In this document: piece after piece, positions 5,640 to 41,659 of the stretch
How positions within the stretch are numbered: position 1 is the first letter of the stretch
Layout: every line of letters starts with the position of its first letter
DNA from: Aureococcus anophagefferens
Lineage: Eukaryota; Sar; Pelagophyceae; Pelagomonadales; Pelagomonadaceae
DNA length: 64,000 nucleotides
NCBI RefSeq assembly: GCF_000186865.1
Contig: NW_008705569.1
Location: forward strand, 1,188,054-1,252,053
Direction: 5' to 3'
Notes under the pieces: model-generated
What the model was told of the DNA's origin: nothing
The model's input: only the letters and a program-made list of their open reading frames with translations
Database searches by the model: none
Position numbers and translations under genes: made by a program

Positions 5640-7982
5640 TCAGTCGCCGCAGCAGCAGGAGGATTCCGTCGTGCCGTTGAACGCGTGGGTGATGCGCGTG
5701 CCGTCGAAGTCGCCGACGGCGGTCGTGTCGAGCACGTTGCCGTAGGACGCGAGCACCGCGATGATGAGCGCCGTGTAGAGGACCGGGAGCAGGATGGAGC
5801 CGAACATGTCGAGGTATCCCGCGATCTTGCGCGCGATGACGGACGACGGGTCGCTCAGTTCGTACTGCGTGATGATGGCCTCGAGCGCGCCCTTGTCGTC
5901 GCCCGCGGCGCCGGTCCGCGCGGGCGACGCCGCGGACCCGTCGCTCGGCAGCTCCGGGAGCTCCTCGACGATGGCGGCGCGGCTCAGCGACGGCCCGGCG
6001 CGCGAGAACGAGCCCCGGAGGCCGGACAGCTTCGTCGAGTCGCGCCGCGCGAGCTGGTGCTGCCGCGTGCTCTCGAGCACGCGCTTCGAGATGCGGCCGT
6101 CGCGCGCCGCCGCGGCCATGCGGCGCAGGACGATCTGCTTGCGCGCGCGCCGCTCCCAGCGCAGGAAGGGCCGGAGGAAGCAGCCGATGATCGGGCTGTG
6201 GAACGCGGCGACGCCGTCGGTCTTGTAGAGCTCGCCGACCATGTCGTACCAGATGGGCAGCGTGATCGCCGCGTCGACCTCGTCGAGCGCGGCGCGGAGC
6301 CGCTCGTTGACGACGGGCGGGAGCCCGAGCTTCGCGACGGCCTGCTCGATCTCGTCCTTGTCGAGCGACCCCGAGTGGTCGCCGTCCGCGCGGACGAAGG
6401 CCATGAGCAGCTCCTGCTCGCTCATGACGCCCGTGCTCGTCTTCACGGAGTAGAGGCTGACGGACACGACGGACACGGCGAGCGTCGCGAGCGAGAAGAT
6501 GAACGAGATGATGTGGATCATCGTGATCGCCGTGTCCTCCGACGACTTGGGGAGCACCTCGAAGGCGACGATGTAGATGGCCGCCTGGGCAGGACAAGGG
6601 TGATTCAACGTCGCTTCCACGTGAGTGTTCCGCGCGCGCGCGTTACGGGGAAAACATCCACGCTTCGAGACCGTTCCGAGAGATGATCGCTCGTCCAAAA
6701 ATCAGCCGAAACGAGTGGAAAACGGCCGAGATATGAGCCTTTGAAGTTGGGAATTTCGCTCTCTTGTGCTGCCCTGATGGCCGCGTTCGTGAGCATGACC
6801 GTGATGCCCAGGCCGATGCGCTCGCCCGAGTCCGGGTTCGCCGCGAAGGCGAGGAAGCCCGCGTAGGTCGCGAGGACCATCGGCAGGAGGATGCCGGACA
6901 CGTAGGTCCGCGCGTGGCGGCGCACCTTGAACGAGTAGGAGATCGTCGGGTAGGGCTCGACGCAGCAGCCAACTGTCGCCGTGCTCGCTGCGCACCTCGA
7001 CGAGGTCGTACTCCGTGTTCGCCTCGAACAATTCGCCGAAGACGAACGCGGCCCAGCCGTCGTCCTCCGAGCCGTAGGGCTGCGTGTCCACGAGCCAGCC
7101 GTGGTTCATCCACGACCCGTAGGTGAACTCGCACTCCTGCTCGTCGAAGGGGAAGTGCTGGAGGTCCATGGGGCACGGCACGATTTGATGCACGGGGTGG
7201 CTCACGAAGACGGAACCTGCGTGGAAATCAACCACTGGTTTGGGGGGTCCCCGCCAAACTTCAGAACTCTCTATCTCATTCAAATCGAAGTCGATTCGGC
7301 TGATTTTTGGACGGATCGATTGCTCTCGTCGAGTTCTCGACGCACGGCCGAAGAGCTTGCGTCGAACTTGTCGCATATGCGCACATTGAAGTCGGGTTGA
7401 AGATTTGAATTCCACACAGGACGGAACCCGACGCGTACGCGTTGACGAGGATCTCCGGCAGCTGGTAGACGCTCGACGTCGCCTCGTAGACGAGGTCGTC
7501 GGGCATCCACGCCTCCTGGTGCTCCCCCCGACCGACGAAGCTCAGCTCCGCGACGCCGCCCCAGTCGTCGGGGTCCCACTGAAGTCGCGGGTCGCGCCAC
7601 GAGTGGCGCCACCAGGAGTAGAACTCGACCTCCTGCCGCGCGACGTTCACATCGCTGAGCTGGCTTAGGGACAGCTGGACGGCGACGCGGACGCCGCGCT
7701 CCGTGCCGAAGCGCGGCGGCGCGATCTCCTTGACCTGCGCGGGCGCGGAGGTCAGCGGCGCGTCGGCACCAAAGGTAGCCCGTCAAAAGCGGCGCCTACG
7801 TAAGCATCTAGGCGCCGACACTGGTCCCTGACGTAGTGCTCGAGGAGCTTGGCCTTTAATGCGGCGGCATAATCGTAACTTTCGACCTCCGCCTCATAGC
7901 CTTCCTCGCGCGCGAGGCCGACGACGGGGTCGGCGGCCCGGGCGGCGCCCAGGGCGAGGGCACAGATCAAAGCGGTGGTCAT
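5640..7982 (-). CDS. Cys-loop pentameric ligand-gated ion channel with cytoplasmic EF-hand
   Basis: Exons 7982-7770, 7734-7416, 7216-6773 and 6584-5640; about 639 residues. MTTALICALALGAARA is a signal peptide. The extracellular domain has WWRHSWRDPRLQWDPDDW, a canonical Cys-loop CPMDLQHFPFDEQEC (13 residues between the cysteines) followed by TYGSW, and an adjacent Cys pair in CCVEPYPTI as in nicotinic alpha subunits. M1 (TYVSGILLPMVLATY), M2 (RIGLGITVMLTNAAI...VLP), M3 and M4 follow. The M3-M4 loop contains one EF-hand (loop DGDHSGSLDKDE). Introns are a 35-nt GT-AG intron, a family B introner and a family A introner. A one-base frameshift near 6970, just before CCVEPYP, breaks the frame; it looks like an assembly error (one extra base) but could be real. 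The ligand is unknown. Confidence 0.88.
6585..6776 (-). mobile_element. introner, family A, in ligand-gated channel gene
   Basis: A 192-bp element flanked by the direct repeat ATGGCCGC (6577-6584 and 6777-6784). Ends are CTGGGCAG/CTGCCCTG-like inverted repeats. Spliced as a GC-AG intron 6772-6585 (AGG|GCAGCA ... TGCCCAG|GCG). It interrupts the M2 pore-helix codons. Confidence 0.95.
7217..7419 (+). mobile_element. introner, family B, in ligand-gated channel gene
   Basis: A 203-bp element flanked by a perfect GACGGAAC duplication (7209-7216 and 7420-7427). Ends CTGCGTGGAAATCAA and TTCCACACAG form terminal inverted repeats. It lies antisense to the gene and is spliced as GT-AG intron 7415-7217. 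Confidence 0.95.
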
Positions 7983-39724: not shown

Positions 39725-41659
39725 ATGAAGTTCGGCGCGGACCTGAAGAACAGCATCGTGCCCGAGTGGCAGCACGGCTACATCGCCTACGACGAGCTGA
39801 AGCGGCTCATCAAGGAGCTGAGCTCGCTGGAGGGCGGCGCCAAGGAGAGCGCCGAGGAGGACTTCTTCATGATGCTCGAGGACGAGCTCGAGAAGGTGAA
39901 CCGCTTCTACCTCGAGAAGATCCAGGAGTTCGACGGCGAGCTCAAGGTCCTCGAGGGCCGGCCGCGGTCCGACTCGAACAGCGCGCTCGCGGCCGGCGGC
40001 GTGCCGTCCGACCGCATGGTCGCGCTCCACGCGCAGATCGGCCAGCTCCAGGCCTTCGTCTGGCTCAACACGCAGGGCTTCGAGAAGATCATGAAGAAGT
40101 ACGACAAGTTCATGGGCCTGCGCCACACGCCCGGGGCCAAGAGCCCCGACTTTGAGGCGCGGCTCCGGGGCGAGGTCTTCAAGTCCGAGCCGGGGCAGGA
40201 AAAGAGTGATTCAAGTTCGCGTCAACATGAGCGTTCCGCGCGCGCGCGTTCCGGAAAAAGCATCCACGCGTCGAGAGCGCTCCGAGGGATGATCGCTCGT
40301 CCCAAAATCAGCCGAAACGAGCGGAAAACGGCCGAGAGAGGAGCCTCTGAAGTTGGGAATGTCGCACCCTTTTGCTGCCCAGGTCCGAGCGCCTCGACGC
40401 GTGCCTCGAGAAGTTCAAGGCCACGCGGAGCCAGCTCAGCAGCGACGTCGGCGCCCTGGAGATGAAGCTCATCTCGGGCTCGGCGAACAAGCCCCTGGCC
40501 GAGGAGATCTCCGCGCGGCTCGGCGTGCCGCTGTCGCCCGCCAAGGTCCGCCGCTTCAACGACGGCGAGGTCAACATCCAGCTCTGCGACTCCGTGCGCG
40601 GCTGCGACGTCTACATCGTCCAGCCGACGTGCCCGCCCGTCAACGACCACCTCGTGGAGCTGCTCCTGCTCATCTCGGCCGCGCGGCGCGCGTCGGCCGC
40701 GTCCGTGACCGCCGTCGTGCCCTACTACGGCTACGCGCGCCAGGACCGCAAGGACCGGAGCCGCGTGCCCATCTCCGCGGCGGACGTGGCGCGCATGATG
40801 GAGGCCATGGGCGTGGACCGCGTCGTCTGCGTGGACCTGCACTGCGCGCAGATCCAGGGCTTCTTCGGGCCCCGGACGCCCGTGGACAATCTGTTCGCGG
40901 CGCCCATCGCGGTGACGTACTTCAACATGAAGGATTTGGTGAAGCCCGTCATCGTGTCGCCGGACGCCGGCGGCGTCGCGCGGGCCAAGCTCTTCATGGA
41001 GGGGTTCTCGCGGTTGCCGGACCCGCCGGAGGTGTCGCTCGCGGTGATCCTCAAGCAGCGCGTCGAGGCCCGCGTGGAACCCAAATCTTCAACCCGACTT
41101 CAATGTGCGCGCATGCGAATGTTTTGACACGAGCACTTCCGCCGTGCTTCGAGAACTCGCTGAGAGCAATCGATTCGTCCAAAAATCAGCCGAATCGACT
41201 TCGATTTGACCGAGCTAGAGAATTCTCAAGTTTGGCCCCGACGTCCCAGCTCACTGGTTGATTTGCACACAGGTCGAGGCCGGCGTCGTGGGCACGATGC
41301 ACCTCGTGGGCTCCGTCGAGGGCTGCGACTGCATCATCGTCGACGACATGATCGACACGGCGGGCACGCTGACGGCCGCCGCGAACGAGCTGCGGAACTT
41401 CGGGGCGAAGCGCGTCTTCGCCTTCGCGACGCACGGCCTCTTCTCGGGGCCCGCCGCGGACCGCATCGAGGCCTGCGTCCTCGAGGAGTGCGTCGTCGCC
41501 AACACCGTGCCCCTGAACCCGGCGGTCAAGGAGAAGACGCGCAAGATCCGCCAGGTCAGCGTCGGCAAGCTCGTCGAGTCGGCGATCCGCGGCATCCACT
41601 GCGGCACGTCCGTGTCCGCGCTGTTCAACGCGGACCTCGGCGCGGACCTCCTCGCCTGA
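39725..41659 (+). CDS. SPX domain fused to ribose-phosphate pyrophosphokinase (PRPP synthetase)
   Basis: Exons 39725-40194, 40383-41073 and 41273-41659; phases agree and give 515 residues. Residues 1-155 form an SPX domain: MKFGADLKNSIVPEWQHGYI, AYDELKRLIKEL, then LNTQGFEKIMKKYDKFMG, carrying the Tyr/Lys residues that bind inositol pyrophosphates. From about residue 180 the PRPP synthetase begins: ISGSANKPLAEEISARLG, RRFNDGEVNIQ, YYGYARQDRKDRSRVPIS (catalytic loop), DLHCAQIQGFF, VSPDAGG and the PRPP-binding VDDMIDTAGTL. PRPP synthetase makes PRPP from ribose 5-phosphate and ATP for nucleotide, His and Trp synthesis. SPX senses phosphate status, so the fusion suggests phosphate control of PRPP supply. 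Confidence 0.93.
40191..40382 (-). mobile_element. introner, family A, inverted relative to its gene
   Basis: Perfect duplication GTCCGAGC (40183-40190 and 40383-40390). GC-AG intron 40195-40382 (CCGGG|GCAGGA ... CTGCCCAG|GTCC). Lies in the linker between the SPX and PRPP synthetase parts, on the strand opposite to the gene, yet both ends give usable splice sites. Confidence 0.95.
41070..41272 (-). mobile_element. introner, family B, antisense in SPX-PRPP synthetase gene
   Basis: Perfect duplication GTCGAGGC (41062-41069 and 41273-41280). GT-AG intron 41074-41272. The protein reads VEAR|VEAG, showing the duplicated codons. Confidence 0.95.

Follow-up and report, generated by a model that had tools for sequence, protein, structure and literature searches.

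Introduction

PRPP synthetase (PRPS) opens the way to nucleotides and to RNA, a main phosphorus sink of growing cells. A locus in the pelagophyte Aureococcus anophagefferens, lying within a 64,000-nucleotide stretch of DNA that was analyzed as a whole (the window), raises the question of whether one gene joins an SPX domain to this enzyme and, if it does, what such a domain would do there. The SPX outputs described in the literature covered are transport, storage, ubiquitination, and transcription. The original prediction regarded an SPX–PRPP synthetase as undescribed, and no description of the fusion was found among the papers listed from an open-access library. An Aureococcus transcriptome study tabulates PHO81-like SPX and VTC4 contigs (PMC4109616), and the terms ribose-phosphate, phosphoribosyl, and pyrophosphokinase were not found in the main texts of that study or of a phosphorus-deficiency proteome study (PMC3237563). 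This article describes the gene, its two functional halves, and its relatives in algae, and weighs what the SPX domain may contribute to the enzyme.

A single gene with three exons

The fusion gene occupies positions 39725-41659 of the plus strand and comprises three exons that encode 507 amino acids. Exon 1 (39725..40182) encodes the SPX domain (approximately residues 1-150) and the start of a linker. Exon 2 (40383..41061) encodes the linker helix and the N-terminal half of PRPS, including the RF loop, as far as K377-x-R379, assigned by a Pribosyltran_N match (3.8e-50) and the residue map. Exon 3 (41273..41659) encodes the C-terminal half of PRPS, including S492, S494, and F497, and the stop codon. 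In the product, a helix links the SPX domain (about 1-150) to the class I PRPP synthetase, which is complete and spans residues 179-507.

The SPX and PRPS open reading frames lie in different genomic frames, and removal of 40183-40382 and 41062-41272 yields 507 codons plus a stop. Both introns, of 200 and 211 nt respectively, have GT-AG borders and are flanked by a copied target (GTCCGAG for intron 1 and GTCGAGGCC for intron 2, the latter intron starting right behind the R379 codon), such that the first copy supplies the donor GT and the second copy opens the next exon. The start of intron 1 had earlier been placed at 40195 and is corrected here to 40183, 12 nt upstream. The corrected protein agrees with database protein P0001 at 506 of 507 positions, with no gap at either junction; this match fixes the junctions, and GC-AG and other splice choices are ruled out. 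Comparison with P0003, an NCBI protein of A. anophagefferens, gives 35 gap positions and 0 mismatches, which confirms the species to which the window belongs.

The SPX–PRPS fusion is a real single gene, and domain matches, splicing, and the P0001 match bear out the view that a complete SPX domain and a complete PRPP synthetase are encoded together. That two adjacent genes were wrongly joined, an annotation merge at 40195-40382 for which the differing frames and the 200-nt repeat at the junction might speak, is so improbable that it was rejected, given the canonical borders with their target copies, the agreement with P0001, the same fusion in transcript-set sequences, and the finding that, of the 36 full-length fusions aligned below, every one carries the four Pfam families; at the level of the family, a merge already stands refuted.

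Intron 1 is a member of an introner family: a search of the 49-Mb genome with a 31-base core taken from it gave 1982 matches (at most two mismatches), and the reversed control gave 0. The literature mentions introners in A. anophagefferens (PMC9481584). The window contains nine more copies of this introner, which are 79-91% identical, lie in both orientations, and start at 6583, 9461, 12123, 23831, 24526, 35895, 42100, 44022, and 52717. The introns differ in type, since the stretch that they have in common is just 24 bases long. P0001 (99.8% identical; ENA contigs of up to 5.9 kb) was also observed to read through both junctions without gaps, and if these contigs represent genomic DNA translated as a single open reading frame, both introners would be absent from some natural alleles.

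The PRPP synthetase is of class I

The PRPS half was mapped against active-site residues of the E. coli enzyme (PMC9232217) and allosteric-site residues of the human enzyme (PMC10227994). Eleven E. coli sites were mapped, and F35, D37, R99, R102, H131, D170, D220, D221, T225, and T228 have identical counterparts in the fusion; E133, in allosteric site 2, is replaced by Ala. Human S47, R49, K100, R104, Q135, D143, S308, S310, and F313 correspond to S223, R225, K276, R280, Q311, D321, S492, S494, and F497, and human K99 is Arg in the fusion, as it is in E. coli. The catalytic loop K377-Q-R379 (41053..41061, plus strand), aligned to the K-R-R loop of E. coli, and the PRPP motif VDDMIDTAGTL in exon 3 (41339-41371, plus strand) are both present, in keeping with the original description of an intact loop and binding motif. 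The Lys and Arg of this loop have a catalytic role in PRPS.

Class I enzymes require inorganic phosphate (Pi) and are inhibited by ADP; class II enzymes work without Pi (PMC9232217). The activation by phosphate and inhibition by ADP originally noted for classical PRPP synthetases are class I traits, and the residues of the Pi/ADP allosteric site are kept. Retention of the class I allosteric residues also separates the window gene from class II, if these residues are taken as the distinguishing mark. Judged by its residues, the PRPS part is a complete class I type, for which Pi activation and ADP inhibition are predicted. What sets it apart from class I enzymes such as E. coli Prs and human PRPS1/2 is about 178 extra N-terminal residues that form the SPX domain and helix; the PRPS chains among the matches listed have 284-379 residues.

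The SPX domain and its putative ligand pocket

The SPX fold is present in the window protein, with a Pfam match above the cut-off. The codons for Y19, Y22, and K26 (39779..39802, plus strand) align without gaps to positions 19, 22, and 26 of Vtc4, and those for N115, K121, K124, K125, and K128 (40067..40108, plus strand) align to Vtc4 N123, K129, K132, K133, and K136, the correspondence having been counted by hand on the alignment; all eight pocket residues of yeast VTC are present. The pocket region is complete in 67 of the 74 fusions listed from the databases (see below); 64 of these 67 show no change at any of the eight positions, and the other three (P0055, P0060, and P0064) have K26N. An alignment of 36 full-length fusions was hand-picked from the 74, with the chimeric-looking (by eye) P0084 included and the three K26N sequences not among its members; within residues 1-150, the pocket makes up 8 of its 14 invariant columns (hypergeometric P 6e-10).

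In VTC, mutants of Y19/Y22, N123, and K129, each combined with the Vtc3 partner, show partial to high activity in the absence of ligand; in the Y19/Y22 and N123 mutants ligand stimulation is gone or nearly so (PMC10167327). The pocket of the fusion is predicted to take an inositol pyrophosphate (PP-InsP), and its near-invariance across the family strengthens the case that the domain acts as a sensor. A predicted structure of the fusion (pTM 0.60) leaves the placement of SPX relative to PRPS unfixed.

In its architecture the fusion resembles the yeast polyphosphate polymerase VTC4, in which an N-terminal SPX domain with the same pocket residues precedes an enzyme domain. GDE1 is a further arrangement of this kind, an SPX–phosphodiesterase. 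The domain behind SPX is the VTC tunnel enzyme in VTC4 and a phosphodiesterase in GDE1, whereas in the fusion it is a PRPP synthetase. Four other known kinds of SPX protein besides VTC share the sensor domain, and none has a PRPP synthetase.

Distribution and origin of the fusion

Two database searches, with the best 120 of about 8000 scored matches taken from each, gave 147 distinct proteins. A search for this architecture across stramenopiles had been proposed; among the matches listed, 74 of the 147 carry both SPX and a PRPS domain (Pfam), with dictyochophytes and haptophytes among their sources. The named sources are Aureococcus, the dictyochophytes Octactis speculum and Rhizochromulina marina, the pavlovophytes Pavlovales sp. 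CCMP2436 and Diacronema lutheri, and the prymnesiophytes Chrysochromulina and Prymnesium parvum, so that the fusion groups are pelagophytes, dictyochophytes, pavlovophyte and prymnesiophyte haptophytes, and unnamed plankton. Several fusions come from MMETSP or EukProt, and the sequences from transcript sets include those of O. speculum and R. marina. One protein, P0124, bears the name COSAG04, which we take to be a Picozoa name. Where the databases name a function, it is ribose-phosphate diphosphokinase (or pyrophosphokinase), phosphoribosyltransferase-like, or hypothetical protein. The fusion had at first been connected with the blooming of A. anophagefferens at low phosphate; it is not peculiar to this alga, being common to ochrophytes and haptophytes, and low-phosphate blooming is therefore unneeded as an explanation.

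For a tree of 97 sequences, PRPS was aligned without its catalytic loop, and the root was not inferred. From an input of 149, 18 were dropped (9 for PRPS coverage below 80% and 9 that were near-copies or looked chimeric or truncated) and further sequences were removed at more than 95% identity (with SPX) or more than 88% identity (no SPX); P0012, P0084, and P0127, chimeric-looking by eye, were kept out. All 48 retained SPX sequences fall in one 65-member clade (100/99) alongside 17 that lack SPX, and because they share this clade a single old fusion, followed by descent or transfer, is the likely origin. Nine changes of the SPX label are needed on the tree, not one. Six of the 17 sequences without SPX represent a pelagophyte paralogue, and at least four (P0063, P0066, P0069, and P0071) retain an upstream piece of SPX; Pfam lists SPX for P0063 and P0066, though they are labeled as lacking it in the tree. 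A 25-member group (99/86) contains four named haptophytes, its other members being haptophyte by position only.

Two SPX-free class I PRPS sequences, P0081 and P0145, lie basally in the fusion clade; these are possibly truncated, or possibly of the unfused ancestor type. Carriage of the fusion by viruses was rejected, as the 80 matches examined, of 211 viral-contig relatives, cover PRPS without SPX, every one of them starting at query residue 163 or later.

Divergence within the family

Six SPX-free sequences, including a paralogue in the A. anophagefferens genome and P0080 of Chrysophaeum taylorii (Pelagophyceae), form a clade (100/99). This clade joins six SPX sequences, the window gene included, at 100/99, while those six are held together at only 89/18; the simplest reading of the tree is that the pelagophyte paralogue lost its SPX domain. 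All 11 paralogue members listed from the databases have a shortened loop with no K-x-R, and in the 10 in which the stretch was captured, the RF loop sequence ARQDR has become ARQSH, SRQTH, or GRSSH. The A. anophagefferens paralogue (C18:411582-412685; L010 1366-2469) has a shortened catalytic loop without its Lys and Arg and an altered RF loop, with His at the R99 position. It is likely a pseudoenzyme partner, a reading against which it counts that the paralogue still exceeds the cut-offs of two NCBIfam PRPS subfamilies (313.5 vs 297 and 296.3 vs 113). A parallel in the way it might work is offered by human PAP39/PAP41, which are PRPS-associated proteins with a PRPS fold without catalytic residues, found beside active PRPS; the algal paralogue differs in lying inside the SPX–PRPS clade, in a tree without animal PAP sequences.

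A second kind of change affects the catalytic loop of sequences that keep SPX. K377 or R379 is missing in 24 of 74 sequences with the SPX region (a set chosen by alignment and slightly unlike the 74 Pfam fusions, with the chimera P0127 and the window protein among its members), 7 by gaps, truncation, or chimerism and 17 by real changes, such as P-R-T or Q-Q-R for K-x-R. These 17 include P0036 (Chrysochromulina), P0048 (Prymnesium), P0038, P0043, P0044, and P0047, and the 12 that are in the tree all lie within the clade of P0036 and P0048, a haptophyte subclade. The pocket region is complete in 15 of the 17, and all eight pocket residues are retained in every one of these 15. These intact pockets suggest that the sensor is important even in members whose catalysis is possibly changed.

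Other PRPS and inositol-phosphate genes

A genome search with Pribosyltran_N found two loci, the window gene and the paralogue (C18:411717), and searches with Pribosyl_synth and, in translation, with a Chromera PRPS found two weaker ones, on C3 (L019 1099-2184) and C6 (L018, minus strand). These score 112.5 and 100.8 bits, respectively, against TIGR01251 (cut-off 113) and lack most of the mapped class I allosteric residues. Both look similar to plant class II enzymes, and the N-terminus of the C3 product looks similar to a stramenopile plastid presequence (ASAFQAP motif). Of the two class I loci found, the window fusion alone has its catalytic residues intact, in an assembly that is perhaps incomplete and in which short-exon genes could be missed. 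The idea that the fusion is the sole PRPS of the genome was narrowed to class I in view of the C3 and C6 genes, which mean that PRPP supply need not rest on the fusion. The genome also has SPX matches at five places, a VTC gene (C8:273894), an IPK-family gene (C1:3496408; IP6K and IPMK are not distinguished), and a PPIP5K gene (C14:1020975). The IPK- and PPIP5K-family genes are putative makers of the ligand and count in favor of an SPX sensor.

A probable phosphate sensor on PRPP synthesis

The fusion is probably a class I PRPS with an SPX sensor, in which PP-InsP would report phosphate sufficiency and license PRPP synthesis; that the pocket binds this ligand, the sign of the effect, and the site of contact are inferred. 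Six SPX domains would decorate a PRPS hexamer. With phosphate and ATP plentiful, InsP8 or InsP7 would fill the SPX pocket and break inhibitory SPX-SPX or SPX-catalytic contacts, freeing the enzyme as in yeast VTC. A fall in phosphate would lower PP-InsP, and PRPP synthesis, with it the entry to RNA, would be throttled. Such a throttle would add to the direct effect of Pi at the allosteric site, in the same direction as the Pi need of class I enzymes. The nearest precedent is the VTC model, in which ligand breaks SPX-SPX contacts (PMC10167327).

The effect could have the opposite sign, with PP-InsP binding inhibiting PRPS, for example if SPX contacts lock the hexamer; phosphate-starved cells would then salvage nucleotides with PRPP. 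Conservation of the pocket fits this equally well, and the modes of SPX vary, the ligand relieving inhibition in VTC and being synergistic with the SPX-PHR interaction in plants (PMC10167327). We nevertheless consider an inhibitory sensor unlikely, because class I PRPS is activated by Pi (PMC9232217) and the allosteric residues are kept in the fusion, so that an opposing sensor would fight the enzyme that carries it. Somewhat more doubtful again is that SPX is a docking or assembly module, for PRPS filaments, the VTC/acidocalcisome surface, or other SPX proteins, that alters location or polymer state and does not act directly on catalysis. The unchanged pockets of the loop-changed haptophyte sequences are compatible with such a role, as is the presence of VTC and other SPX genes in the genome, and filaments of E. 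coli PRPS alter its regulation (PMC9232217); pure docking, however, would presumably not require the pocket Lys residues, which are kept as they are in ligand sensors.

For the licensing sensor that we favor, a warning comes from human PRPS1, which provides a physical link between PP-InsP and PRPS. This enzyme, although free of SPX, binds PP-InsP probes, and its activity is unaltered by InsP6 or PP-InsPs (PMC13237142), which cautions against presuming an effect in the fusion. The haptophyte subclade that keeps the pocket while its loop Lys or Arg is changed, with SPX retained despite no obvious catalytic need, also makes one on-off model too narrow for the whole family. Further points that weigh against the licensing reading are the three K26N fusions, the nine label changes on the tree, the loose domain placement, and the two other PRPS-like genes on C3 and C6. 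A wider history may accommodate both kinds of divergence, and we offer it tentatively, with its chances put at a little under even. In haptophytes and in pelagophyte/dictyochophyte algae, one ancient fusion would have made PRPP synthesis, and with it nucleotide and RNA growth, directly subject to inositol pyrophosphates, and labor would then have been split, with an SPX-free, loop-shortened partner subunit in pelagophytes and Lys/Arg-changed, dedicated sensor subunits of PRPS hetero-oligomers in a subclade of prymnesiophytes.

Implications

If the sensor reading is true, an SPX domain on PRPP synthetase would connect phosphate status with nucleotide supply through a single protein, and would do so in widespread algae. 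How growth and RNA content are set by the supply of phosphate could then be tested directly, with InsP8 and a single purified enzyme, and the fusion gives reason to ask what follows when human PRPS1 binds PP-InsP. For the algae that carry it, the fusion suggests a possible direct coupling of nucleotide production to phosphate status.
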